64,000 nucleotides of DNA from NCBI RefSeq assembly GCF_028713515.1, contig NZ_JAQTOD010000001.1, positions 744,001 through 808,000 on the forward strand, in the 5' to 3' direction. The position numbers and the translations under genes are program-made. Origin of the DNA: Sulfurimonas sp. (GTDB taxonomy: Bacteria > Campylobacterota > Campylobacteria > Campylobacterales > Sulfurimonadaceae). Under the pieces are notes generated by a model. It was not told where the DNA came from and ran no database searches. It worked only from the letters and a program-made list of their open reading frames with translations. Each line of letters opens with the position of its first letter. Within the stretch, counting starts at the first letter, position 1. This document shows positions 11,344 to 62,942 of this stretch, one piece after another.

Positions 11344-12264
11344 TTAAAAAAAATCTACAACTACACCATCAGGCAATTCGCTCTTAATTATCTCCCTACT
11401 GTTTAAAACCAAAACAAAGCTGATCTTTTCACGCCGAAGCAGAGCAATGGCATCTTTTAGACTCATAATAGAAACTGCTGTAGCCATTGCATCAAGTCGT
11501 GTGTTGTCACCATTATCCATTAAAGTAACTGATGCGAAGAGTTGTTCGGATTTGCCTGTTTTTGGATTAAGTAGATGATTGTGTGTTTTGTTTTTTATAA
11601 ACCTCTCATAATTTCCGCTCGTGCTAACTGCAAAAATAGGAAGCACTGAGTGGATGGTTGCGAATGTTTTATTTGGTGAAAATGGGTCAGTTATAGCAAT
11701 TTCACATACTCCAATACAGCCAATGTCACCACTTGCTGCCACTACTGCTCTATCAACTCCTCTTTTTTTTAGAAGTTCAATAGACAAGTCAACCGCGTAA
11801 CCTTTTGCAATTCCGCCCAAATCCACAATCGCTCCATGAGATAAAAATGCGTAATCCTCTTTGATAGTCAGTTTGTCCGCTCCAACATTTACGAGCGCTC
11901 TTTTGAGCTCGGTTTTATTTGGAACTCTCTCGTTTCCACCAAAGCGATATGCTCCATGGCTAAGTGCTCCGATTGTCACATCAAAAACACCGTTTGTTAA
12001 TTTTGAAATCTCCAAAGATCTCTCAAGTAGAGTTTTTGTTTGCGAAGTTAACTGCAACTTGCCATATCTGTTTAATCTTGAGATTTCGGAGTTGCTTTTA
12101 TATGTTGATAGGCTCTCATCCAGCTCTTTAAATAGACTAAACACTGCATCAGTAGCATTTTCATCATCTATCTTAACACTTATCATGGTTCCCATATGAA
12201 CTTGCATTCGCTCACTAGAAAAAAGAGTTAAAGCCATAAAAAATAGAATTAAAATTAGTCTCAT
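11344..12264 (-). CDS. apbE: FAD:protein FMN transferase (ApbE)
   Basis: ApbE attaches FMN covalently to a threonine or serine of exported proteins, using FAD and Mg2+. The 306-residue protein has an N-terminal signal sequence (LILILFFMALTLFSS) without a lipobox cysteine. It has the family motifs MGTMISV, GALSHGAYRFGG, DLGGIAKGYAVD, AASGDIG, TSGNYERF, and NTRLDAMATAVSIM with the metal-binding aspartate. It is divergent from, and 108 bp away from, the FMN-binding protein gene at 12373, whose product contains a typical ApbE target sequence. The pair therefore very probably work as enzyme and substrate in the periplasm. Confidence 0.93.
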   Translation of the reverse strand: MRLILILFFMALTLFSSERMQVHMGTMISVKIDDENATDAVFSLFKELDESLSTYKSNSEISRLNRYGKLQLTSQTKTLLERSLEISKLTNGVFDVTIGALSHGAYRFGGNERVPNKTELKRALVNVGADKLTIKEDYAFLSHGAIVDLGGIAKGYAVDLSIELLKKRGVDRAVVAASGDIGCIGVCEIAITDPFSPNKTFATIHSVLPIFAVSTSGNYERFIKNKTHNHLLNPKTGKSEQLFASVTLMDNGDNTRLDAMATAVSIMSLKDAIALLRREKISFVLVLNSREIIKSELPDGVVVDFF

Positions 12265-12333
12265 AATTGCATCTTATCATATTTATTACTTTTTTCGCTT
12301 GTTTAATAAAAGAGTTTTTCTATCCTCTTTAAG

Positions 12334-12339
12334 TATAAT
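12334..12339 (+). promoter_or_regulatory. -10 element for the FMN-binding protein operon
   Basis: A perfect TATAAT lies 33 bp before the TTG start at 12373 in the apbE/FMN-protein divergent region, with T-rich DNA upstream. No clear -35 is seen, which is usual for Campylobacterota vegetative promoters. Confidence 0.45.
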
Positions 12340-12372
12340 TATACTCTTACATCAAAATATAGGAGTTATCTC

Positions 12373-12888
12373 TTGAATAAAATAACACTACTTTTACTTC
12401 TCTCTTTCTCATTGGGTACTGCACAAAATCTAGGCGATCCAGTGGCTATAACTGGGCGTACATTTGGCATGAAATCTATTGAGACAAAAAATATAAACTT
12501 GAACGATGCTCAAATAGGACAGTTATCAACTGCATCAAAACAGAAAATCGATACAAAACTTTATCGTGTTTTCATCGCAAAAAATGGCTCTAAAGTTGCA
12601 GGATATGGCGTACTTGTTAACAAAAAAATACGAACAAAAAATGCAGTTACTCTTTATCTTATTACAACTGATAAAAAAATCAAATCTATTGAGATAGTGG
12701 CATTCAATGAGCCAGCAGAGTATCTTCCGAGTAAAACTTGGCTAGAGCTGTTTGATAACAAAAGCGAAAGTAATCCTCTTATGTTAAATCAAGACATTCC
12801 AGCTAAAACGGGTGCTACACTCTCAGCTAGAGCAATTACTGATGGCGCAAGAGTAGCATTAGCACTACTAAAAATTACAAAGCTGTAA
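12373..12888 (+). CDS. exported FMN-binding domain protein, likely ApbE substrate
   Basis: This 171-residue protein has an N-terminal signal peptide (MNKITLLLLLSFSLGTA) and an FMN-binding domain of the RnfG/NqrC type. The motif KTGATLSARAITDGAR (about residues 142-157) matches the flavinylation consensus [ST]GA[TS]xS, so the threonine of GAT is the likely phosphoester-linked FMN site. The start is TTG at 12373 with AGGAG at 12361-12365. apbE lies divergently upstream, and two small membrane-protein genes follow at 3 bp and 0 bp spacing. It is probably a periplasmic one- or two-electron carrier; the electron donor and acceptor are unknown. Confidence 0.85.
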   Translation: MNKITLLLLLSFSLGTAQNLGDPVAITGRTFGMKSIETKNINLNDAQIGQLSTASKQKIDTKLYRVFIAKNGSKVAGYGVLVNKKIRTKNAVTLYLITTDKKIKSIEIVAFNEPAEYLPSKTWLELFDNKSESNPLMLNQDIPAKTGATLSARAITDGARVALALLKITKL

Positions 12889-12891
12889 AAC

Positions 12892-13371
12892 ATGAAATTT
12901 ATCGCCGGTAAAAAACTCTCTGACAACAAAACTCTTCGAGCAACTATACTTTGGATGCTTTTTGCGTTAATCGTTGCTATGTCGTTAAGTATTGTCACAA
13001 AAGGCATAGAGTTTGGATTTGCTCCAGATGAGTGGATAAAAAGAGTTATTGGGAATGAGGCGGAGTTTATCGAACCACTTGGATTTAAAGATCTGCTACT
13101 TGGTGTTCATACTGATCTTTTTGGACTAATTATCACTTTTATTATGATTGCATCACTCTATACTCGAACCGCACACAGCGAAGTAGTAAAAATTGGCTAT
13201 ATGATTTTATCTATCGCCACACTACTTATTTATCCGATTGGGCTACTTCTTTCTGGAATGCTTGGGGGCACAGGAGTTGTCCTATCACTAGGTGCTTTTA
13301 CTATCTTCCATCTACTAGCCATAATCGCTTCACTAGATTTGATAATAGCAATAATGAGAAAAAGATACTAA
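12892..13371 (+). CDS. small four-helix membrane protein of unknown function
   Basis: I do not recognise a family. The 159-residue protein has about four membrane helices (roughly 17-36, 66-90, 98-122, 126-155). Histidines lie at the start of helix 2 (H73), after it (H95), and inside helix 4 (H140). Histidines facing each other across helices can bind heme b, but nothing here proves that. The ATG follows the FMN-protein stop by 3 bp, and its own stop directly precedes the next ATG, so the three genes form an operon. Context suggests a membrane partner of the flavoprotein. Confidence 0.7.
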   Translation: MKFIAGKKLSDNKTLRATILWMLFALIVAMSLSIVTKGIEFGFAPDEWIKRVIGNEAEFIEPLGFKDLLLGVHTDLFGLIITFIMIASLYTRTAHSEVVKIGYMILSIATLLIYPIGLLLSGMLGGTGVVLSLGAFTIFHLLAIIASLDLIIAIMRKRY

Positions 13372-13809
13372 ATGAATACTCGCCTACTCTCTTTTTTAGC
13401 TCTTGGTTTTAGTGCACTTACAATCCTCCAAGCACTCCTTGGAACACTACTGTTTTACCACACTATCGGCTTCTCACTAGATGCAATCAACAACTACTAC
13501 GCCCCAAAATCCTTGCATGGCTTGCTAGAAGTTCTACTTCCGCACACTCTTTTTATCTCAATCGCACTAATGGCAATCACACATTTTTTAAGCTTTATCC
13601 AAACTATTAGCGAAAACACAAAACGCATAGCAACTCACACACTGTTTCTTCTTTTTGTTTTAGATCAAAGCTCAGTGCTCCTAATAGCTTCAGGCTTTGA
13701 GATATTTGCCATCGTAAAACTTTTTGCCTCTACCATGTTTCAAATCTCGCTCTCTTTAGTTTGGATAGTTATGTTTAAGCATACTTTAAAAGCAGTAGAG
13801 AAAAATTAA
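13372..13809 (+). CDS. small four-helix membrane protein of unknown function
   Basis: This is an unrecognised 145-residue protein with about four membrane helices (roughly 5-28, 50-75, 85-107, 112-137). Histidines stand at residues 30, 49, 58 and 71; H58 and H71 lie 13 residues apart on the predicted second helix, a spacing also seen for heme ligands in cytochrome b helices. The match is suggestive only. It starts immediately after the stop of the preceding membrane-protein gene and ends the flavoprotein operon. The next gene downstream is the NapC-type cytochrome, after a 316-bp gap. Confidence 0.7.
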   Translation: MNTRLLSFLALGFSALTILQALLGTLLFYHTIGFSLDAINNYYAPKSLHGLLEVLLPHTLFISIALMAITHFLSFIQTISENTKRIATHTLFLLFVLDQSSVLLIASGFEIFAIVKLFASTMFQISLSLVWIVMFKHTLKAVEKN

Positions 13810-14125: not shown

Positions 14126-14761
14126 ATGGAATATGAAGATCACACAAACAAATTCGAAAAACCAAAAAGAAAATTTTGGTTTGGATGGAAAGGAGTAGGT
14201 ATATTACTTAGTGGCGGAGTGATAGCTGGGCTAGTTATTTCATTTATTACAGTTGTAGCAGTTCAAGAAACATCAGGGGTAAATTTCTGCTCTGCATGTC
14301 ACTCAATGAAGCCTATGGCAGATGCGTATAGAAACGATGTCCATGGCGGATATGGGCATGTTGGTGTTATGGCAAAATGTACAGATTGCCATCTACCTCA
14401 TGAATCTACGATGGGTTATTTGGTTCAAAAAATCAGAACTGGGTGTTGGGATGTTTGGGTAGAGACAACGCATGACACCTCTAAGATTGATTGGCATGAA
14501 AAACGAGATGAACGACGCAACTGGGTATATGATTCTGGATGTCTTCATTGTCACGAAAATCTTCTTCGAGGAACTCGCCCTAATAAAAAAGCATTTACTG
14601 CGCATAAGGCATACTTTGCTAAAAAACTAGTCGTTATGGGAAATGAGGGAAAAGAGTTGGCAAGATGTGTTGATTGTCATAAACATGTAGGACATTATCA
14701 ACTTGAAAAACATCTTCCTGAGGCCCCTGAAACTCTTGCTGACACAGTTAAGTCAGAGTAG
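14126..14761 (+). CDS. NapC/NirT-family membrane-anchored tetraheme cytochrome c
   Basis: This is a quinol-oxidising tetraheme cytochrome of the NapC/NirT/NrfH family. The 211-residue protein has one N-terminal membrane anchor (about 25-48) and four CXXCH sites: CSACH, CTDCH, CLHCH and CVDCH. The first is followed by Ser-Met (CHSM), as in NrfH where that methionine ligates heme 1. Such proteins take electrons from menaquinol and hand them to periplasmic cytochromes. It heads a run of five cytochrome genes and is probably their quinol entry point. No nitrate, nitrite, TMAO or sulfite reductase gene lies next to it, so the terminal acceptor is not identified. Confidence 0.93.
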   Translation: MEYEDHTNKFEKPKRKFWFGWKGVGILLSGGVIAGLVISFITVVAVQETSGVNFCSACHSMKPMADAYRNDVHGGYGHVGVMAKCTDCHLPHESTMGYLVQKIRTGCWDVWVETTHDTSKIDWHEKRDERRNWVYDSGCLHCHENLLRGTRPNKKAFTAHKAYFAKKLVVMGNEGKELARCVDCHKHVGHYQLEKHLPEAPETLADTVKSE

Positions 14762-14775
14762 TTTGGAGGATGGTT

Positions 14776-15330
14776 ATGAAAAAATTTAGTAAAAAACAGA
14801 TAATTGCTACTATTATGGCAGTGATATTTATTGTAGCGTTTGTGCTTATGGGAGTGCCTGAAAAACTAGGTCGTCTTGCGGTTATAACTAAAGATATAGC
14901 AACAAACATGATAAACGCTACTCATGGTGATCCTCGTCCACTTGAAGAGATGACAACTGCTTATATCAAAGCCAATACAGGCACAACAAAAGATATAGAT
15001 TATAAATATCTCCCTGAAGCACTTAAGCCATTCAAAGAGCATGTTCACTCCCCTTTTAGAATGGGAGCTTGTGCTGTCTGTCATGCACCAAATCGCTCTA
15101 AGCCGGCAGCAATTGTAACTCACACCGTTAGTGAGCTCTGCTACAAGTGTCATACTCCAGTTGATGGCATTAAGCCTAATGGAAAAGAACTTGACTGCAA
15201 TAAGTGTCATAGTCCGCATCATGCAGATAAAGAGAAGTTAATTCGAAATACAGTTACTGAAATTACATGTCCAGCAGGGAAGTTTGATGCCGAGACAACA
15301 CTGCCTGAGATAAAGCATAGTAGTCACTAA
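14776..15330 (+). CDS. membrane-anchored triheme cytochrome c
   Basis: The protein of about 184 residues has an N-terminal membrane helix (about 8-26) and a periplasmic part with three CXXCH motifs (CAVCH, CYKCH, CNKCH), the last followed by SPHHAD as in doubled-CXXCH proteins. The segment LKPFKEHVHSPFRMGACAVC is clearly related to the first heme region of the next gene product, so the two are paralogues, this one being the short form. I chose ATG 14776 because the GGAGG at 14765-14769 is 6 bp upstream of it but abuts the alternative ATG at 14770. Its partner and function are unknown. Confidence 0.85.
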   Translation: MKKFSKKQIIATIMAVIFIVAFVLMGVPEKLGRLAVITKDIATNMINATHGDPRPLEEMTTAYIKANTGTTKDIDYKYLPEALKPFKEHVHSPFRMGACAVCHAPNRSKPAAIVTHTVSELCYKCHTPVDGIKPNGKELDCNKCHSPHHADKEKLIRNTVTEITCPAGKFDAETTLPEIKHSSH

Positions 15331-15357
15331 AGCAAAAACAAAAAAGAAGAGTCAATA

Positions 15358-16881
15358 ATGATAAAAAAACATGGCACAAAAACGATTATTTTCTTACTAC
15401 TACTAATTGGAACAGTTGCGCTTTACCAAGTGGATGCTGGAAAAAAATTTGGTCGTTTCATCACTGTAATGAAAGATATTAGTATTAAAGTACTCAATGG
15501 CGAGCCGGAGCAGATAGTAGAAATTAGTGATGATGAACTAGCTGAAGTTAATGTAAGACAGATTGCCAGCGATCTTGAGGGTAAAAAGCGAGGAGAATCT
15601 GAAGCAGAACATACACCAGCAGCTCCCACTAAAATACCAAGAGACGAAATTCGTGCCGAAGAGCGACCTACTCACACTAAAACAATGATTAAAGAAGCAA
15701 AACTCATTGATTTAAAAGATATTCCAGCCAAACTAAAACCACTTAAAAAATATATGCATGAACCATTTAAAATGGGTGCATGTCAGATATGTCATATCCC
15801 AAAGGGAGATAATCCTGCGGCTCTAGTTAAAAATAACATTCATGAGATATGTTATGAGTGTCATAAAACAAAATACACAAAAGAGTTTGACCATAAACCA
15901 GTAAAAGATGGACAATGCACAAAATGTCATGACCCTCATCAATCAGACACACCAAAATTACTCAAAGGTATTTCAGTAAACGACACATGTCTTAAATGTC
16001 ACGATAAAGTAAATGGAGCAAAAGGTGTAACAAAATTTATCACCATGAATGGCAAATACAAGCACAAGCCGGCCGAAAAAAGCTGTTTAGAGTGTCATGA
16101 TCCACATACTTCAAACTATAAAACACTAATGAAAAAAGAGGTTGGTCTTGAGTTTTGCCTTGATTGTCATAGCTCCATAAAAGATCATAAAGATATGCGT
16201 AAATGGATAAATAGTGCGAAATATAAACATGGCGCAGTTGATGATAGCAAAGGAAAATGTCTTGAGTGTCATGACCCACACTCATCAAATCATCCAAATA
16301 TTCTCAAAAAAGATTCAGTACAGGTTTGTCTAGAGTGTCACAACAAATCACTTAAATCTAAAGAAGATGGTGGAACAATGATGAATATAGCTCAACATCT
16401 AAAAGAAAATCCAAACTGGCACAAGCCAATTAAAGAAGCAGACTCCAAAGATGGGGGATGTAATGCTTGTCATGATGCACATGGATCAGATAATTTCAGT
16501 ATTCTTAAAAAATCATTTACCAAAAATTTCTATGCTGATCTTGAAAATAAAGATTTTTTCTGTTTTAAATGCCACAAAGAGACTAAGATAACGGAACGAT
16601 TCACAACAAATAGTGATGTTACAAAATTTCGTGATGGAGATATAAATCTTCATTACCTGCATGTCAATGATAAAAAAGGTCGCTCTTGCCGCGCCTGCCA
16701 TGATGAGCATGCGTCGAAAAATAAACATTTAATTCGTGACTATACTGATTTTAATAGTATAAAGTTTCCGCTTCGATTTATAGATGGGCCAAATGGTGGC
16801 TCTTGTGCCCCAGCTTGTCACAAGAAATTTGAATATGACCGAAGCACGCCCAAAGGCATTGGTCAAAAAGATAGCAAATAA
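15358..16881 (+). CDS. membrane-anchored dodecaheme-like cytochrome c (11 CXXCH + 1 CX3CH)
   Basis: The 507-residue protein has an N-terminal membrane helix (about 8-24), a spacer of about 100 residues rich in charged residues, then heme sites in series. Eleven are CXXCH (CQICH, CYECH, CTKCH, CLKCH, CLECH, CLDCH, CLECH, CLECH, CNACH, CFKCH, CRACH) and the twelfth is CAPACH at residues 483-488, a CX3CH. Several sites are followed by DPHxS, the doubled-CXXCH pattern. The N-terminal heme region is paralogous to the preceding protein. It is probably an electron wire on the outer face of the inner membrane or reaching across the periplasm. The stop overlaps the next start by 1 bp. Confidence 0.88.
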   Translation: MIKKHGTKTIIFLLLLIGTVALYQVDAGKKFGRFITVMKDISIKVLNGEPEQIVEISDDELAEVNVRQIASDLEGKKRGESEAEHTPAAPTKIPRDEIRAEERPTHTKTMIKEAKLIDLKDIPAKLKPLKKYMHEPFKMGACQICHIPKGDNPAALVKNNIHEICYECHKTKYTKEFDHKPVKDGQCTKCHDPHQSDTPKLLKGISVNDTCLKCHDKVNGAKGVTKFITMNGKYKHKPAEKSCLECHDPHTSNYKTLMKKEVGLEFCLDCHSSIKDHKDMRKWINSAKYKHGAVDDSKGKCLECHDPHSSNHPNILKKDSVQVCLECHNKSLKSKEDGGTMMNIAQHLKENPNWHKPIKEADSKDGGCNACHDAHGSDNFSILKKSFTKNFYADLENKDFFCFKCHKETKITERFTTNSDVTKFRDGDINLHYLHVNDKKGRSCRACHDEHASKNKHLIRDYTDFNSIKFPLRFIDGPNGGSCAPACHKKFEYDRSTPKGIGQKDSK

Positions 16882-17861
16882 TGAGCAAAATAATTAAAAA
16901 GATATTTATATCAACTATAATGGTAAGCACAACATTCTCTCTGCTGATGGGTGCAGAGAGCATAGAAATCTCTCCTTCAATTGATAAAAAAATCTTTCAT
17001 GAGCAGTATGTGTCAGTTACTGTTAAACTAAACAACAAAAACATCTCAAAAGTACTAATAGTTACTGACAAAAATGAACATTACCCCATAGAATTAACCA
17101 CCCAATGTGACAATGTATGCTCCAAAATAATAAAACTTCGTCTTGGAGAGAACTCTATTCGCGTTGAGGGATATATTGGCGAGGAGCTGGCTTATGAAGT
17201 AAAAAATGAGCTCTACTGCGCCTCACAAGCTTTCAGAGAGTACAAAGAAGCTCCGATTAAATATAAAGAGCGCTTTTTTCACACCGATAAAAATGAAAAA
17301 CTATGTGCAGAATGTCACGATATGAGCAATAATGAACAAAAAAAAGTTGCTTTTGTTGATGTCAAAGACTCCAACTGTTTTGTTTGCCATAAAGCAATTA
17401 CATTAGATAGATATGCCCATGCTCCATCAGCAAACTGGCTATGTACAAGTTGTCATACCGGAGAGATAGAAAATAAGAGTAAAAACATAATTGAGAAATC
17501 TAAATTTATCGCTCCCAAACAGATTGCATCTGCTTGTTTTTCTTGCCATGACAAAAACAAGCAGAGTTGGGACACAAAAAAACACAAACATTTTCCAGTT
17601 GAAGCTGGAATGTGTACAAGATGCCACAACCCTCACTCTTCTGACAACAAGATGTTTTTGCGAGTAAATTCTAGCTTCTTATGTCTAGAGTGTCATGCCG
17701 ATAAAAAATTATCCCAACAAATACGAGGAAACTCAAAATGTCCAGGAGAACAAAAAGATGGCTGCACGGAGTGTCACAATCCTCATGCGTCAGATTATCG
17801 CTTTTTATTAAAGTCTCCACATGTAGATAAAAAAATAGATAATAACATCAAAGGAAAATAA
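16881..17861 (+). CDS. exported heptaheme cytochrome c with N-terminal beta domain
   Basis: The 326-residue protein has a signal peptide (residues 1-24), a heme-free domain of about 90 residues with alternating short strands (probably Ig-like), and seven CXXCH motifs: CAECH, CFVCH, CTSCH, CFSCH, CTRCH, CLECH and CTECH, two of them followed by NPHxS. It is a close paralogue of the next gene product: heme order, spacing and flanking words (SNCF, NWLCTSCH, CTRCHNPHSS, CHNPHASD) agree. It lies in a chain with 1-bp overlaps on both sides. It is probably a periplasmic or surface electron carrier; the acceptor is unknown. Confidence 0.87.
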   Translation: MSKIIKKIFISTIMVSTTFSLLMGAESIEISPSIDKKIFHEQYVSVTVKLNNKNISKVLIVTDKNEHYPIELTTQCDNVCSKIIKLRLGENSIRVEGYIGEELAYEVKNELYCASQAFREYKEAPIKYKERFFHTDKNEKLCAECHDMSNNEQKKVAFVDVKDSNCFVCHKAITLDRYAHAPSANWLCTSCHTGEIENKSKNIIEKSKFIAPKQIASACFSCHDKNKQSWDTKKHKHFPVEAGMCTRCHNPHSSDNKMFLRVNSSFLCLECHADKKLSQQIRGNSKCPGEQKDGCTECHNPHASDYRFLLKSPHVDKKIDNNIKGK

Positions 17862-18838
17862 TGCGTTTTACTCTTATGCTTTCATTTATTTTTTCATTTT
17901 CCACTTTATGGGGTGAAGTTGGTGCCATAAAACTCATTACTCCAATACCATCGACTATATATCACGAAGAGACAGCATCTGTTGTTGTTACTTTTGTCTC
18001 ACCACTCATCGATGGCGTTATTATCTCTGCTGAATCAAACCAAAGCAGCAAAATTATTCGTCAAAAAGAGAGGAATAGTTACTGTAAAACGGTACAACTA
18101 GCTCCCGGAGAAAACAAAATAACTGTAAGTGGATTTGGAAAAGATGGGACAATAGAAAATATTTCAGTGCTTATTTTTCATGATATTGTGTCGGAAAAGA
18201 TATACAAATATCCTCCAGAAAAGTATATGGAAGAGAGTTTTCATACTCCAACAAATGAACGGTTCTGCTCTTCATGTCATAAAATGGAGGTCAATGAGAT
18301 TCCAAAGATTGCCTTTGAAAATCCAGCAGACTCTAACTGTTTTCAGTGCCACCAAAAACTCACAACGCGTAAATATGGTCATGCACCGGCAATAAACTGG
18401 CTCTGCACATCTTGCCATGAAATAAAAAAAGAGCTAGGCGATTCAAAGTTTACTCTCCCCTCCATGATTGGCAAAACATGCCTAAAGTGTCATGATAAAG
18501 AGAGCCAAAAGTGGGAAACAAAACGATTTCATCATATGCCAGTGGACTCAGAAAAGTGTACACGATGTCACAATCCTCACTCATCTGAGAATAAATTTTA
18601 TCTAAAGGCTAAACCGTGGGACATCTGCACTTCATGTCATATAGACAAACGAGAAGGAAAGCATGTTATCAACACTTTTGGCAACAAAAATCATCCAACT
18701 CGCGATAAACCAGACCCTTCTCGTCCAGGAAAAGAGATTGAATGTATCAGCTGTCACAATCCACATGCCTCCGACTCTGCGTCACTTATAGATGCAAAAA
18801 GCCCAATGAGTATCTGCATAAAATGCCATAAAAAATAG
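17861..18838 (+). CDS. exported octaheme cytochrome c with N-terminal beta domain
   Basis: The 325-residue protein has a signal peptide (about 1-18), an Ig-like heme-free domain of about 100 residues, and eight CXXCH motifs: CSSCH, CFQCH, CTSCH, CLKCH, CTRCH, CTSCH, CISCH and CIKCH. The first seven correspond in order to those of the upstream paralogue, and the eighth is an addition at the extreme C-terminus. It is the last gene of the cytochrome operon and converges on the DJ-1 gene 20 bp away without an obvious terminator hairpin. Tandem duplication followed by divergence is the simplest origin. Confidence 0.87.
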   Translation: MRFTLMLSFIFSFSTLWGEVGAIKLITPIPSTIYHEETASVVVTFVSPLIDGVIISAESNQSSKIIRQKERNSYCKTVQLAPGENKITVSGFGKDGTIENISVLIFHDIVSEKIYKYPPEKYMEESFHTPTNERFCSSCHKMEVNEIPKIAFENPADSNCFQCHQKLTTRKYGHAPAINWLCTSCHEIKKELGDSKFTLPSMIGKTCLKCHDKESQKWETKRFHHMPVDSEKCTRCHNPHSSENKFYLKAKPWDICTSCHIDKREGKHVINTFGNKNHPTRDKPDPSRPGKEIECISCHNPHASDSASLIDAKSPMSICIKCHKK

Positions 18839-47591: not shown

Positions 47592-49553
47592 TTAAGTTCT
47601 AAACACCTCTATTTTAGCATGAAGAGCGCCTGTCATAGAGTTTAAATGTTCGGCAGCAGCAGCAATCTCTTCAACATTTCTAGCATTTTGTGAAGAGATT
47701 TTATTTATCTCCGATACTTGTGTAACAATAGACTCTACATCTAGTCCAGCCTTTTGAAAATCCATAACGGTTTTATCGCTTGCCATCACTGCCTCTTTTA
47801 CAATCGAAACGCTCATATTTATATTTCTCTCAACATCTGAGGCACTATCTACTAATCCCTGAATCTCTTGCGAATTATCACTCATTTGGCCACTCACATC
47901 CATGATGGACTGCACTATTATATTTATAGTTGCATTTATCTCAGTAAGTGAACGCTGTGTTCTTTCTGCTAGTTTTCTAACTTCATCAGCTACAACCGCA
48001 AAACCTCTACCATGTTCGCCAGCCCTTGCTGCCTCTATTGCCGCATTAAGCGCAAGAAGATTTGTTTGGTCTGCAATATCAGAGATAATACCTAAGATAT
48101 TTTTTACTTCATTTGCTTCATGAGACAGAGTTTGCATTTTTCCTGCCAACTCCGTCTCAAGTTCTGCACTCTGTTGCACTTTTATTGTAAGCAATACAAT
48201 TTCACTTCTTGCAGAATCTAGATTGTCATTTGCTCTAATAATATCCTTTTTACTCTCTTGCGCATCATAAATTGCTCTTTGTATCTCATCTTTTACATCA
48301 TTTGCCTTTTTAGTTGCCTTGTCTATTACGATTACAGACTTACCAACATTTTCTCCAACTCCAACTGCAGTAGTGGATAACTCATGGGCAATAGAAGCAT
48401 TTTCGCTTGAACTTATTTTTGAGGTTTCTATAAGATCTTTTAGTTTTAAAATAAGACTATTAAAACTCTGCGCCATTTGAGAAAGCTCAAGTGGCGCATT
48501 CTCGTCAGCCTTTATAGTTAAATCATGATTTGAACCAATTACAAGAAGTGTATTTTTAAAATCATCAATTGGTTTTGAGATAGAATATTTCACAAGAAAA
48601 AATATAAAGAATGCAAAGATAAAAATACCCACAAAAAGCCCAATCGCTAACATTGTTATGTTTAAAGAGGCTTCTTCTATTTTTCTATCTATTTGATTAT
48701 AAATATTTTTATATAACTCAATTTCAACTTCTCTAAGCATATCAATGGAAGTTGTAGCATATGAGAACCAAACAGATGGTTCAACTCCAAAATTACCACT
48801 CACTCCTTTTGATTTTGCTATATCAATCATAGCAACTGTTTTATCTACAGCCTCACCTTTGTAGCTATTTTCATAAAACTTCTTAATTTCATCAGGCGCC
48901 AAAGCAATAAACTTTCTTATGTTTACACCATATGCACCAAAACTTCCAGAAAATTTAAAATATGTATCTCCAGTAAACTCATTCTTAGTGAAAGCACCAT
49001 TTAAATTTGCTCTTATTTGACCTAAATTCTCTTTTGCTGAAGCTAAATGAGTATATGCTTGAATCGTGTTTCTGCTTTGTCTATCTTCCATATTTGATGG
49101 GATTACCGTTGTGATATCTACAATAGAAACAATAATTTTTGTAAAGTAGGCTCCGGTATCAGGAGCACTTATATTAAGTGAATCAATAGAAGTTCTTTTT
49201 TTACTAAATTCATTTAAACTGCTTAAAACAGAAGTGTCTCCTTTTGTTTTTTCATATATCTTATTAACTTCAGAAATTGCATTATCAACTTTTCCTCTAA
49301 TATCAGATAGTTTATCTGCATTTTTTACTCCGCCACTAGCAACAAATCCAACACTAAGACCTCTTTCTATCTGCATAAAATGGATAGCTTTTGCCAAAGA
49401 CTCTGCTTCTAGAATACGATTTTTTGTTATCTCAAGATTCTCTTTTACACCAATATCGTAAGCTATTTTACCTGCAGACAACACCAAAACAACCAAAATT
49501 GGAACTACTGTCAATGCAAATAATCTAATTTTTAAACTTATACTCTTCATCAT
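47592..49553 (-). CDS. methyl-accepting chemotaxis protein with NIT sensor domain
   Basis: The 653-residue chemoreceptor has a first membrane helix (about 9-28), then a long periplasmic helical domain of the nitrate/nitrite-sensing NIT type ([22 protein letters not shown] and [12 protein letters not shown]), a second helix (about 300-322), a HAMP-like segment ([16 protein letters not shown]) and a cytoplasmic signalling domain (about 400-653) with the hairpin-tip [20 protein letters not shown] and [11 protein letters not shown]. It signals to CheA. NIT domains bind nitrate/nitrite in some proteins, so the ligand here is suggested but not shown. No C-terminal CheR-tether pentapeptide is seen. 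Confidence 0.92.
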
Positions 49554-56983: not shown

Positions 56984-59092
56984 TTGAGTACATTAACACG
57001 AGAGACAAAACTAACACTTCTTTATATATTTATAGCTCTTCTTTTCTCTATTGCGGCTAGAATGATTTGGTACTACCAATTTTATGGCTATGAGCCATTT
57101 ATACATGATGGTCAGTTTATGATAAACACAAATGATGGCTACTATTGGGCAGAGGGAGCAAGAGACATCTTAGCTGGACATCATGAGCTAAATGATCTAT
57201 CCCCAGTCACCGAAGTGGTATCAAAATTTGCAGCATTTTTTGCTTATATATTGCCATTCTCATTTGAAACCATTATCCTTTTTATGCCAATGGTGCTCGG
57301 CTCTCTTGTTGTAATACCAATAATTCTTATAGGTAAAAGTTTAAAAAATCTAGAGCTTGGTTTTATTGCTGCACTACTGGCAAGCATTGCAAATAGCTAT
57401 TATAATAGAACAATGATAGGCTACTTTGACACAGATATGCTAAATATAGTTCTTCCTATGTTTTTATTGTGGTCAATAATTTGGGCAATAAAAACAGACG
57501 AAGAGAAATATCTGCTCATAACAGCACTTGATATTTTAGTCTATAGATTGTGGTATCCACAGAGCTATTCACTGGAATTATCATTTTTTACTCTTATACT
57601 CTTTTATGTGCTAGTTTTTGATAGAAAAAATTTATTTAACTATAAACTCTTAGCAATTATGATGATTGCTATGCTAAACATTGACATATATATAAGATTT
57701 CCGCTGATTACTGCTATATATTTCGTATATAAACAGAATAAATTTGATAAATTTGTTTATTATATATTGGGAGTCTCAATCATTTTATTTTTTGTTTCCG
57801 GCGGTTTTAATCCTGTTTGGGATCAATTAAAAGGATATGTTTTCAAAGATGCTCTAATCGTAGGTGAGCATGGAATGAGGCTCCATTTCTTCTCGGTTAT
57901 GCAAACAGTCAGGGAAGCCGGTCATATTCCTTTTGAAGTTTTTGCGCAGAGGATAAGTGGAAGCGTTATCGTTTTTGCTCTCTCTATTGTTGGCTATATC
58001 TATCTTGTTTTTAGGCACAAAGTGATGCTTATTGCTATTCCTCTTATTGGGCTTGGTTTTTTGGCGAGCGTTGGTGGACTTAGATTTACTATCTACGCCG
58101 TACCTATCTTGGCTTTTGGTGTTGCATTTTTGATAACAGAAGTTGCTAGATTTATACCAAATATTAAAATAAAAATCTTGACTATATTTACACTCACGGT
58201 TGTGATTTTATCTCCAAATATCCAGCATATAGTGGAGTATAGAGTTCCGACCGTATTTAACTCTGATGAAGTTAAGGTTTTAGAGATGCTAAAAGCAAAA
58301 GCATCCAGAGAAGATTATGTTGTTGCATGGTGGGATTTTGGTTATCCTATCCGCTATTATGCTGACATGAAAACACTGATTGATGGCGGAAAACATGATG
58401 GAAGTGTAAATTTTCCAGTTAGTTTTATGCTGACAAATCCTGCCGAATTATCAGCAAAAATAGCAAGACTTGATGTCGAATATACCGAAAAAGGTTTCAA
58501 AAAAAATGCAGAGACAAACGAAACAGCTACCTCAAACATAGAACAAATAAGTAAGGATTATGGTTACGACGACACTAATGATTTTCTATACTCACTCCAA
58601 ACAGATATAAAACTTCCACAAAAAACAAGAGATATCTATTTTTATCTACCATTTAGAATGTTAAGTATCTACTCAACTGTTGCCTCTTTTTCAAATATAA
58701 ACCTTATGAATGGGGAGATGGGCAAAGAGCCAAATCTCTATAGCAGCAACAATTTTGAACAAAAAGGTGATATTGTTGACCTAGGAAATGGCTTTTTATT
58801 TAACACAAAAGAAAAAACGATAACTGTCTCAAAAGAGAAAATCCCACTAAAGAGGTTTGTTCAAACAGGATATGACAAAGAACTTAACTTTAGTAAAAGA
58901 GTGGATGTTTTTAATGAGAGCGCAAACTTAAGCATAATATATATGTCAAGCTATAATACTTTTTTAGTCCTTGATGAGAAGACATACAACTCGCTATATA
59001 TCCAGTTGATGGTGCTTGAAGAGTATAATAAATCGCTATTTGAACTAGTTGTACAAAATCCACATGCAAAAGTTTATAAGCTAAAAATTTAA
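56984..59092 (+). CDS. pglB: oligosaccharyltransferase PglB (STT3 family)
   Basis: This is a single-subunit STT3 enzyme that moves lipid-linked glycan to asparagine in D/E-x-N-x-S/T sequons on the periplasmic side. The 702-residue protein has about 13 membrane helices in the first 430 residues and a catalytic aspartate D51 in NTNDGYYWAEGARD. The external-loop segment TVREAGHIPFEVFAQRISGS has the glutamate and arginine, and the WWDFG sequon-binding motif is at 449-453. Campylobacter PglB is about 713 residues. The start is TTG at 56984, with GAGGA seven bases upstream. It is followed by galU, pgi and pglF in one direction. Confidence 0.95.
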   Translation: MSTLTRETKLTLLYIFIALLFSIAARMIWYYQFYGYEPFIHDGQFMINTNDGYYWAEGARDILAGHHELNDLSPVTEVVSKFAAFFAYILPFSFETIILFMPMVLGSLVVIPIILIGKSLKNLELGFIAALLASIANSYYNRTMIGYFDTDMLNIVLPMFLLWSIIWAIKTDEEKYLLITALDILVYRLWYPQSYSLELSFFTLILFYVLVFDRKNLFNYKLLAIMMIAMLNIDIYIRFPLITAIYFVYKQNKFDKFVYYILGVSIILFFVSGGFNPVWDQLKGYVFKDALIVGEHGMRLHFFSVMQTVREAGHIPFEVFAQRISGSVIVFALSIVGYIYLVFRHKVMLIAIPLIGLGFLASVGGLRFTIYAVPILAFGVAFLITEVARFIPNIKIKILTIFTLTVVILSPNIQHIVEYRVPTVFNSDEVKVLEMLKAKASREDYVVAWWDFGYPIRYYADMKTLIDGGKHDGSVNFPVSFMLTNPAELSAKIARLDVEYTEKGFKKNAETNETATSNIEQISKDYGYDDTNDFLYSLQTDIKLPQKTRDIYFYLPFRMLSIYSTVASFSNINLMNGEMGKEPNLYSSNNFEQKGDIVDLGNGFLFNTKEKTITVSKEKIPLKRFVQTGYDKELNFSKRVDVFNESANLSIIYMSSYNTFLVLDEKTYNSLYIQLMVLEEYNKSLFELVVQNPHAKVYKLKI

Positions 59093-59141
59093 GCCCCCGT
59101 TGGATAAAATTTTTAGCAAAAGCGAGCAAAAGGTTCTAAAT

Positions 59142-59975
59142 ATGCCAAAAGATAAAACAAAAATAAAAAAATGTCTCTTTCCGGCCGCTGGATATGGAAC
59201 AAGATTTCTTCCTGCCACAAAAGCAATCCCAAAAGAGATGTTACCAGTACTTACAAAACCACTTTTGCAGTATGGAGTAGAAGAGGCAATAAGTGCAGGA
59301 ATAGAGACAATGGCAATAGTCACTGGTCGCGGAAAAAGAGCCATAGAGGATCACTTCGATGTATCTTATGAGCTAGAGCATCAGATAAAAGGGACATCAA
59401 AAGAGCACTATTTAACAGAGATTAGAGATGTTATAGAAAAATGTACATTTTCATATACTAGGCAGATTGAAATGAAGGGTTTGGGTCATGCAATTCTTTG
59501 TGGTGAAACTCTTATCGGCAATGAACCTTTTGCTGTAATCCTAGCCGACGATTTGTGTGATAATGATGGAGACTCAGTACTATCTCAAATGGTAAAACTA
59601 TACGATAAGTACAGATGCTCCATTGTTGCAGTCGAAGAAATTCCACTAGAAGATAGTAATAAGTATGGCATTGTAACTGGAAAAACAGAAGAAGACGGTG
59701 CTATTAGAATTACAGATATGGTTGAAAAGCCAGACCCAAAAGATGCACCATCAAATCTAGCTATTATCGGCAGATATATCTTGACTCCAGATATTTTTGA
59801 CATCTTGCAAGAGACAAAACCTGGCAAAGGTGGAGAGATTCAGATAACCGATGCATTGCTTGTCCAAGCGAAAAAAGGCGGAGTAATCGCCTATAAATTT
59901 AAAGGCAAGAGATTTGATTGCGGAAGCATAGATGGTTTTGTGGAAGCTACAAATTATTTTTATGAAAAATGGTAA
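59142..59975 (+). CDS. galU: UTP--glucose-1-phosphate uridylyltransferase
   Basis: The 277-residue nucleotidyltransferase makes UDP-glucose from UTP and glucose-1-phosphate. It has CLFPAAGYGTRFLPATKAIPKEMLPV (UTP-binding, residues 9-34), the catalytic VILADDLC, and VEKPDPKDAPSNLAIIGRYILTP. I choose ATG 59142, with AAGG eight bases upstream. A longer TTG-started reading from 59100 adds residues not typical of GalU. It lies between pglB and pgi and probably supplies sugar nucleotides for surface glycans. Confidence 0.94.
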   Translation: MPKDKTKIKKCLFPAAGYGTRFLPATKAIPKEMLPVLTKPLLQYGVEEAISAGIETMAIVTGRGKRAIEDHFDVSYELEHQIKGTSKEHYLTEIRDVIEKCTFSYTRQIEMKGLGHAILCGETLIGNEPFAVILADDLCDNDGDSVLSQMVKLYDKYRCSIVAVEEIPLEDSNKYGIVTGKTEEDGAIRITDMVEKPDPKDAPSNLAIIGRYILTPDIFDILQETKPGKGGEIQITDALLVQAKKGGVIAYKFKGKRFDCGSIDGFVEATNYFYEKW

Positions 59976-59982
59976 CAACTAG

Positions 59983-61191
59983 ATGAAATATTTTAGCAAC
60001 TTTAATCCAACCCTATCAGATAAAAACATATTTGATCAAATAGTAAAAGAAAAAGAGCATATAGGCTACTATAATCTTGCAACTCAAGACACAACTCTTT
60101 TTAAGAAGTATGCAAAAACCATCAAACAGTCCAATATAGTTGTCATAGGAATTGGTGGGAGTACACTTGGCACTTATGCAATATATAAATTTTTAAAACA
60201 CTCAAAAAAGCTCGACAAAAAACTATATTTTTTAGAAACAACTGATCCAATAGATATAAAATCAAAAGTTGAAGCTATAGACCTACACGACACGCTCTTT
60301 GTTGTTATATCAAAATCAGGAACAACAGTTGAGACAGTTTCCATTTTAAAGTATATAAACTCTCTTATTAAATGCGACAAAAACAATACACTAATCATAA
60401 CAGAGAGTGACTCTAAGCTAAACGAATATGCAAAAGCAAATAATATGAAATGTTTTGAGATACCAAAAAATGTAGGTGGGCGATTTTCTGTTTTTAGTGC
60501 GGTTGGCTTAGTCCCGCTTGCTATCGTTGGCATAGATATTGACGAGCTACTTCATGGCGCTAAAGATGTTTACAACTCGTTTTTCTTGAAAGAGGAGAGC
60601 TATAAAAGAGTACTTAAAAAAGCTAGATTTTTTGTAGAGTATAAAAATAGTTTCAATATAAATGTAGTTTTTTCTTACTCATCAAGACTTGAAGGTTTCA
60701 ACAAATGGTATATCCAACTTTGGGGCGAGAGTCTTGGCAAGATAGATATCAACAACTCAAGACAAGGCTTAACTCCAATAGGAATCATAGGACCCATAGA
60801 CCAACACTCGTTTTTACAGCTAATAGTTGAGGGCAAAAGAGACAAAACAGTAACGGTTATAAAAATAGATGATTTTGACAGTGATTTGATAATTCCACCA
60901 ATAAAGCTAGAAGGACTCTCTGAGCTTAATTATCTGGATAACATAAAATTTTCATCCCTCATAAACAAACAAGCGGATGCTACAATAGAGTCCATAAATA
61001 ACCTGCAAGATATCCCCTGCGATGTAATCACCATAGGCGGGGTAAGCGAGAGAAGTTGCGCCGGGCTTATGTATGAGTATGAGCTTCTAACATCAGTTTG
61101 TGCAAAATTTATGCACATTGACGCGTATGATCAGCCAGGAGTAGAAGCTGGAAAAATTATACTAAAAGAGAAGCTAGAACACAAATACTAA
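59983..61191 (+). CDS. pgi: glucose-6-phosphate isomerase, short type
   Basis: The 402-residue enzyme interconverts glucose-6-phosphate and fructose-6-phosphate. It is shorter than the E. coli enzyme, as usual in Campylobacterota. It shows the sugar-phosphate SIS fold with VIGIGGSTLGTYAIYKF, FVVISKSGTTVETVSI, GGRFSVFSAVGLVPLAIVGID, and the C-terminal AYDQPGVEAGKI that closes the active site. It starts 7 bp after galU and its stop overlaps the pglF ATG by one base, so pgi belongs to the glycan operon. Confidence 0.95.
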   Translation: MKYFSNFNPTLSDKNIFDQIVKEKEHIGYYNLATQDTTLFKKYAKTIKQSNIVVIGIGGSTLGTYAIYKFLKHSKKLDKKLYFLETTDPIDIKSKVEAIDLHDTLFVVISKSGTTVETVSILKYINSLIKCDKNNTLIITESDSKLNEYAKANNMKCFEIPKNVGGRFSVFSAVGLVPLAIVGIDIDELLHGAKDVYNSFFLKEESYKRVLKKARFFVEYKNSFNINVVFSYSSRLEGFNKWYIQLWGESLGKIDINNSRQGLTPIGIIGPIDQHSFLQLIVEGKRDKTVTVIKIDDFDSDLIIPPIKLEGLSELNYLDNIKFSSLINKQADATIESINNLQDIPCDVITIGGVSERSCAGLMYEYELLTSVCAKFMHIDAYDQPGVEAGKIILKEKLEHKY

Positions 61192-62942
61192 TGAACATAG
61201 ATAAAAAAATACTAAATATTTTAGCAATAATAGCACTATCGTCAATTACATTTTTATGGACATTTTTTATATTTCATATTCAAGTTGATCTGATTGTTAT
61301 TTTTAGTGTCATATCTATTCGCCTTATGGCTTCATTTTTGATTTTTAATGACTACTCACTCTCTTGGTCCAAAGCCTCACAAAAGACATTTCTCACAAAG
61401 AGCTTTGTTTATATAGTTGCCTTTTTGATCTCTGTCCCACTCTTTTATACAAAGATTACAATTGCTTTTTTGGCTTCTGAACTCTTCTTATATCTTTTTA
61501 GTATTAACTTTGCTATGTATTTTTACCATTATCTAATAAACAAAAGTAATGTCATAAAAACAAAGTCAGTGGTAATTTATGGTGCTGGCAATGATGGAAT
61601 CAAACTGAGTTATGAACTTGCAAATAGTGAATACAAAATTAAATTTTTCATAGATGATGACAAAGCTTTACAAAACCGTTCAATAGACTCTATTCCTATA
61701 CTTTCGAGAGAAAAGTTTAAAGAAAAAACTGTTAATAAAAAAGTTGATTTACTTGCTATCGCGACTACACATAAAGATAAAACAAAAGAGATATATGATG
61801 ATCTGCGTAATCTATTTTTAGAAATTAAAATTCTATCATCTGCCGATAATATACTAGAAGATGGCAGGCTACAATCCGAGCTAAAAAATATCTCCATAGA
61901 AGACCTTTTAGCTCGCTATCCAAAGGATTTAGATAAAGAAAAAATTGCTCTATTCATTAAAGAAAAAGTTGTTTTAGTTACAGGTGCTGGCGGAAGTATT
62001 GGTCGTGAAATATGTAAACAACTCCAAAGATATGGTGCAAGAAAAATAGTTGCAATTGATAATAGTGAGTATAACCTCTATGCCCTGCTTGAGGAGATAA
62101 AAGGTGTAGAGTGCGTTGGAATTATGCAAAATGTAGTAAACAGAGATATTTTAGAGAATAGCTTTAAGACACATAGGCCTCAAATTGTAATTCATGCAGC
62201 AGCGTATAAACATGTATCACTAGTTGAAGATAATATACAAGAGAGTATTATAAACAATGTTATAGGCACTAAAAATATTATTGATCTATCTATAAAATAT
62301 AACACAGAGAAGTTTGTGTTAATATCAACAGACAAAGCGGTAAGACCTACAAGCATAATGGGGGCAACTAAGCGAATCTGCGAGCTTTATGCCCAAAACG
62401 CAGTTTCTTCAGAAAACTCTCCTGTTTACGAAGAAAAAAATAAGACAGAGATTGTGTCAGTTAGATTTGGTAATGTATTGGGAAGCAGTGGCAGTGTGAT
62501 TCCAAAGTTCAAGTCCCAAATAGAAAATGGTAACAATATAACAGTAACCCATCCTGATGTCACAAGATTCTTCATGCTTATCTCAGAGGCCTGTGAACTT
62601 GTACTTCAAGCTGCTTCTATTGGTAAGGGAGGAGAGATATTTATCCTTGATATGGGAGACTCTGTAAAAATTGTAGATTTAGCTAAAAAAATGATTGAAC
62701 TTAGCAATAAAGAGAACATAAAGATAGAGTTTATCGGCTTGCGCTCAGGAGAAAAACTCTTTGAAGAGTTACTTGTAGATGAAGCTGACTATACAACTGA
62801 GTATAACTCTATTACAGTTGCAAAGCCTACAAAATACAATATATGCAAGCTAAATGCAGATATAGAAGAGCTACTTTGTATTGACAATAAGCTGAAAAAA
62901 TTAAAAGAAATTGTTCCTGAATTTAATCATTTTGTAAATTAA
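61191..62942 (+). CDS. pglF: UDP-GlcNAc 4,6-dehydratase, membrane type (PglF/CapD-like)
   Basis: The 583-residue protein has four N-terminal membrane helices (about 8-125) and a degenerate first Rossmann domain (VVIYGAGNDGIKLSYEL, about 128-144). The active extended SDR domain starts at VVLVTGAGGSIGREICKQL (about 257-275) and contains STDKAVRPTSIMGATKRICE, where catalytic Asp-Lys and Met replace the usual Tyr, as in PglF/WbpM. It makes the 4-keto-6-deoxy precursor of bacillosamine-type sugars used by N-glycosylation. It is the last gene of the pglB-galU-pgi-pglF run; the pglC, pglD and pglE partners are not in the window. Confidence 0.92.
   Translation: MNIDKKILNILAIIALSSITFLWTFFIFHIQVDLIVIFSVISIRLMASFLIFNDYSLSWSKASQKTFLTKSFVYIVAFLISVPLFYTKITIAFLASELFLYLFSINFAMYFYHYLINKSNVIKTKSVVIYGAGNDGIKLSYELANSEYKIKFFIDDDKALQNRSIDSIPILSREKFKEKTVNKKVDLLAIATTHKDKTKEIYDDLRNLFLEIKILSSADNILEDGRLQSELKNISIEDLLARYPKDLDKEKIALFIKEKVVLVTGAGGSIGREICKQLQRYGARKIVAIDNSEYNLYALLEEIKGVECVGIMQNVVNRDILENSFKTHRPQIVIHAAAYKHVSLVEDNIQESIINNVIGTKNIIDLSIKYNTEKFVLISTDKAVRPTSIMGATKRICELYAQNAVSSENSPVYEEKNKTEIVSVRFGNVLGSSGSVIPKFKSQIENGNNITVTHPDVTRFFMLISEACELVLQAASIGKGGEIFILDMGDSVKIVDLAKKMIELSNKENIKIEFIGLRSGEKLFEELLVDEADYTTEYNSITVAKPTKYNICKLNADIEELLCIDNKLKKLKEIVPEFNHFVN

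Follow-up and report, generated by a model that had tools for sequence, protein, structure and literature searches.

Five consecutive multiheme cytochrome genes, A to E (positions 14126 to 18838), lie in the window, the 64 kb stretch of DNA analysed here (C1:744001-808000 of a 2.0 Mb host genome in 5 contigs). We propose that this cassette probably encodes the inner half, in the inner membrane and periplasm, of an extracellular electron transfer chain running from menaquinol to the outer membrane, and that the outer half is supplied by an unlinked conduit locus. A sequence-only reading had taken the cassette for a complete route; it is better described as the inner half of one, with its probable outer half at C1:218.7-233 kb (L033, L049). 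This conduit was overlooked because it lies ~530 kb from the cassette, on the same chromosome.

The cassette and its quinol entry protein

The coordinates, reading frames and plus-strand orientation of the five genes are as the sequence-only reading gave them. Gene A (14126..14761, 4 CXXCH) encodes a membrane-anchored tetraheme quinol dehydrogenase that forms its own sub-clade in the NapC/NirT/NrfH family. It is followed by genes for a triheme cytochrome with an N-terminal membrane anchor (B, 14770..15330, 3 CXXCH), an MtrA-like cytochrome in which a linker follows the membrane anchor (C, 15358..16881, 11 CXXCH), a secreted cytochrome with homology to E throughout (D, 16881..17861, 7 CXXCH) and a second secreted cytochrome with an N-terminal FN3/Ig-like beta-sandwich at residues ~21-109 (E, 17861..18838, 8 CXXCH). 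The 33 CXXCH sites of the cassette compare with ~0.004 expected by chance in 1555 aa, and no open reading frame outside A-E in the 64 kb window contains more than one. Genes A and B are separated by 8 bp and B and C by 27 bp, and the 1-bp overlaps described earlier among the last three genes are two TAATG junctions, C-D and D-E. A promoter scan 5' of gene A gave nothing beyond chance level.

To the sites already described we add a CAPACH (CX3CH) motif in gene C, which 26 of 28 orthologs and all 34 of the 34 conduit paralogs share. Its conservation suggests that the cassette could hold 34 hemes, 12 of them in gene C. The CXXCH counts are themselves well conserved across orthologs: 4 in A (27/27), 3 in B (26/26), 11 in C (24/28), 7 in D (23/23) and 8 in E (19/24). 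The close relatives belong to the Sulfurimonadaceae, and among named matches the MAG Sulfuricurvum sp. STC_37 comes nearest (79% on gene C).

The match of gene A to PF03264 (E 1.2e-29; 103.7 bits against a cut-off of 24.1) supports the earlier suggestion that a NapC/NirT-type quinol protein feeds the periplasmic multihemes, and gene A is the only NNT protein above cut-off in the host genome. Its N-terminus is hydrophobic in the alignment. Residues M49, K82 and D89 of NrfH (2j7a_C) align with M61, K102 and D109 of gene A, which are invariant in 18 orthologs (the Lys/Asp invariance being taken from the A3 column list). We take Met49 of NrfH to be a heme-1 ligand, and Lys82 and Asp89 to be menaquinol-site residues. 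Gene A nonetheless falls below every equivalog cut-off, including that of TIGR03153 (NrfH; 63.5 bits vs 134.2), and in 397 Campylobacterota genomes its clade stands apart at 361-411 bits vs <=235 for all other proteins.

Genes B and C are 33% identical and have similar N-terminal anchor regions, which look uncleaved; that of B is a strong hydrophobic segment without a lipobox. The products of D and E look secreted. The best PDB match of gene C (E 1.4e-11) is 6r2q_A, which is likewise the best match of gene E and which we take to be the MtrA chain of the Mtr complex, despite its differing deposited name. Gene C scores 112.4 against the MtrA/DmsE decaheme family TIGR03508, below the cut-off of 192.2, and its 11 CXXCH plus CX3CH differ from the ten hemes of that family. 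The AF2 model of gene E, reliable for the N-terminal domain only and not for the heme part, shows an FN3/Ig-like sandwich there (pLDDT ~88; VIA Z ~11), with many FN3/Ig folds among its matches and no particular function indicated.

The region 5' of gene A (11344-13809) encodes an ApbE flavin transferase whose gene is divergent from those of a periplasmic FMN-binding protein and of two small membrane proteins that lack a Pfam match. We rejected the idea that these genes belong to the operon, because the FMN-binding protein is found in 36 of 99 relatives, in most cases where the cassette is absent, and shows no linkage to it. Possibly these genes form a flavinylated redox module that is common in the genus.

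A probable outer-membrane conduit locus on the same chromosome

A search of the host genome with gene E leads to paralogs at C1:219-221 kb. They belong to the conduit locus, which contains, in order, genes for a monoheme cytochrome c, an 11-heme protein, an 8-heme protein, a tetraheme protein, an NHL lipoprotein, a SurA/PPIC PPIase, a 585-aa barrel, a second NHL protein, a 10-heme protein, a small protein and CcsBA. The 11-heme and 8-heme proteins are paralogs of cassette genes C and E. The tetraheme protein matches OmcE (7tfs, E 1.6e-27), with the 4 CXXCH and all 8 His conserved; by sequence it is a member of the OmcE (nanowire) family, and it is predicted to form filaments. Resemblance to OmcE is also seen in the N-terminal 240 residues of the 10-heme protein (3e-25), a presumed surface cytochrome.

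An AF2 model of the homologous barrel of STC_37 (L102) has ~28 strands (pLDDT 88.9). MtrB (6r2q_B) is its first-ranked Foldseek match (E 6.9e-10), whereas the VIA alignment gives it a Z of 16.2 vs 20 for siderophore receptors. Since VIA-align shows no preference for MtrB, we describe this protein just as a large outer-membrane barrel. Judged from this model and from the order of its genes, the second locus is a porin-cytochrome conduit, with a predicted large barrel and multiheme cytochromes whose localisation is presumed. All PF09699 (Paired_CXXCH) multihemes of the host genome are encoded in the cassette and the conduit, apart from one OmcE-like protein on C2. That protein (G000:C2:148738-149286; L141:8739-9287, minus strand) is an isolated tetraheme of 182 aa with an OmcE-like C-terminal half, and similar short forms occur in G420. 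One conduit locus of a relative (L042:4797-12563) carries two 10-heme genes that score alike against the reference and are separated by genes for a spermidine-synthase-like membrane protein and an NHL protein.

Conservation and co-inheritance of the two loci

The A-B-C-D-E order is kept in ~20 loci of several genera, so that the five genes do stay together across Campylobacterota, and gene order and heme counts are both conserved in Sulfurimonas, Sulfuricurvum, Hydrogenimonas and other Campylobacterales. In relatives the cassette and the conduit are neighbours. The last gene of the conduit operon of STC_37 (L050, L102) is that for CcsBA, and A-B-C-D-E comes immediately after it; in L054 the conduit lies directly 3' of the cassette; and in L069, L070 and L074 the two converge. 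The distance between nearest gene starts of cassette and conduit is ~6-9 kb in one Sulfurimonas group, and both loci fall within ~20 kb in G139 and G097. Both are also present in G136, which, like G139, is a near-complete or complete genome from another genus.

Conduit genes are found in 23 of 24 named Campylobacterota genomes with the cassette. Among 397 Campylobacterota genomes, the gene A clade is present in 8 and OmcE in 11, with an overlap of 8 (hypergeometric p 1.2e-14, a value that disregards the shared ancestry of the genomes). The converse pattern also occurs: two complete congeners (G032:C1:2233000-2252900, L048; G055:C1:2455000-2474900, L047) have the conduit and OmcE and lack the cassette, which implies another quinol entry or electron source in those organisms. 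A quick tree places gene C and the conduit 11-heme protein in sister clades (support 100 and 95), and among 23 genomes their distances are correlated (Mantel r 0.96, 0/5000), partly reflecting shared species history. The simplest history would be an old duplication of conduit subunits that gave rise to the cassette relay. Two loci are of mixed composition. In L073, p_mono and p_11h are followed directly by a gene C homolog with 13 CXXCH and then by D and E, a result of recombination between the loci or of misassembly. In L075, from a Persephonella MAG (Aquificota), broken-up copies of both cassette and conduit genes lie side by side, through either inter-phylum transfer or a binning error.

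Because the conduit is present in the host genome and adjoins the cassette in relatives, the terminal partner probably lies outside the cell and is not a missing periplasmic reductase. We rejected a reductase encoded nearby: a PF02335 search found no NrfA in the host genome, and, in agreement with the sequence-only reading, no molybdoenzyme or copper enzyme adjoins the cassette. It is improbable, too, that the cassette by itself makes up a periplasmic reductase of some soluble compound, in which D and/or E would be the catalytic multiheme subunits. Such enzymes are often served by NapC/NrfH proteins, and in three of the next-best-scoring genomes the closest other NapC clade in Campylobacterota adjoins an octaheme cytochrome of ~450 aa, then a PPIase-like gene (L135:8242-10208, L136:8119-10094, L143:7768-9685); we presume this cytochrome to be of the eHao type, which it resembles. 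Genes D and E, however, show no similarity to an octaheme reductase or NrfA in the features looked for: the cassette proteins contain no CXXCK, as had been noted before, and neither D nor E has a Cytochrom_C552 domain match. The paralogy of C and E to conduit subunits and the near-perfect co-occurrence with the conduit also argue against a soluble substrate. Orthology to a characterised reductase complex, which the earlier reading had named as evidence that would count against it, did not emerge, and a role for gene E as a tetrathionate/hydroxylamine octaheme enzyme was rejected when family searches gave no support. The high heme density and the absence of a catalytic subunit might instead suggest that the cytochromes store electrons in the periplasm or buffer stress, outside any respiratory route. 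We regard this as very improbable for an operon that is headed by a quinol entry protein and co-inherited with an outer-membrane conduit.

Proposed electron route and its setting

Based on its family and its conserved site residues, gene A is expected to draw electrons from the quinol pool. A heme relay across the periplasm would then be formed by the inner-membrane-anchored B and C and the secreted D and E, whose Ig-like domains may serve in docking; the anatomy of the proteins is consistent with such an arrangement. We propose that electrons pass from quinol to A, to B and C, to D and E, and on to the 11-heme and 8-heme proteins of the conduit, from which they would reach the barrel, the 10-heme protein and OmcE. 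Outward flow would be the usual direction, and the final acceptor is likely to be a solid, a partner cell or another extracellular acceptor.

NapC/NrfH-type proteins and Mtr-like conduits can operate in both directions. Fe(II), sulfide minerals, a partner cell or a cathode could donate electrons that travel inward through the conduit to quinone or to cytochrome oxidases and finally reach nitrate or oxygen. We consider inward flow rather unlikely, and yet a serious rival, because the gene inventory of the host genome (obtained from family searches) includes NapA and heme-copper oxidase-type genes and lacks NrfA, [NiFe] hydrogenase and SoxB, the last two being donor enzymes common in its relatives. 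Against it, sulfide may still be a donor here; Kmv11, a relative with the same cassette, is reported to possess Sqr, Sox and hydrogenase (PMC7565565).

The components of the proposed outward route resemble those of Mtr, Oet and OmcE systems. Like CymA-MtrCAB of Shewanella, the two loci combine NapC-type quinol entry, MtrA-like periplasmic cytochromes and an outer-membrane barrel. The inner module here, however, has five genes, including one for an anchored 11/12-heme protein, and falls below DmsE/MtrA-family cut-offs, and OmcE-type filament proteins take the place of MtrC/OmcA. A barrel, a beta-propeller, a PPIase, multihemes and putative filament cytochromes are shared with the OetABI/OmcX-OmcS-like clusters of Geobacter and of ANME-partner sulfate reducers, the latter of which also have genes for a beta-propeller and a PPIase (PMC10553843, PMC5539420). 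What differs is the Campylobacterota host, the OmcE-type filament protein and the 11/8-heme subunits, of which the cassette has a dedicated duplicate. The conduit tetraheme, a putative filament protein, has the 4 CXXCH and 8 His of the OmcE filaments of Geobacter sulfurreducens (7tfs). In Geobacter the rise of such filaments is 34 A (PMC12954529). Gene A belongs to the same family as the quinol proteins of NrfHA and NapC-eHao in Campylobacterota and has the same quinol-site residues, whereas its clade is separate, NrfA is missing from the genome and no octaheme reductase adjoins it.

We suggest, tentatively, that a lineage of sulfur-cycling Campylobacterota may build OmcE-type extracellular cytochrome nanowires, which would be charged or discharged through a dedicated quinol relay of five genes derived from duplicated 11-heme and 8-heme conduit subunits joined to an NrfH-type protein. 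If this is true, Campylobacterota would have in the two loci a set of genes for exchanging electrons with minerals, electrodes or other cells. Oxidation of sulfide with solid MnO2 has been reported for Sulfurimonas relatives (PMC9122950 and works cited there). These relatives are also reported to correlate with cable bacteria, in a study that arrived at "no complete pcc" and a possible "undetected porin" for one Sulfurimonas genome (PMC11748539). The genome of Kmv11, which carries both cassette and conduit, was published without mention of either (PMC7565565). Indeed, reports on Kmv11, on Sulfurimonas from cable-bacteria sediment and on S. pluma do not describe the two-locus arrangement, and no description of it in Campylobacterota was found in the literature searched, which leaves out most subscription papers and preprints. 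The two loci are now a defined candidate gene set, with the gene A clade, gene C and OmcE as markers that standard HMM cut-offs miss.

Elsewhere in the window, positions 47592-49553 encode a chemotaxis receptor with a NIT domain (nitrate/nitrite sensing), and an N-glycosylation/sugar locus at 56984-62942 encodes a PglB-type oligosaccharyltransferase together with PGI-like and PseB-like proteins.
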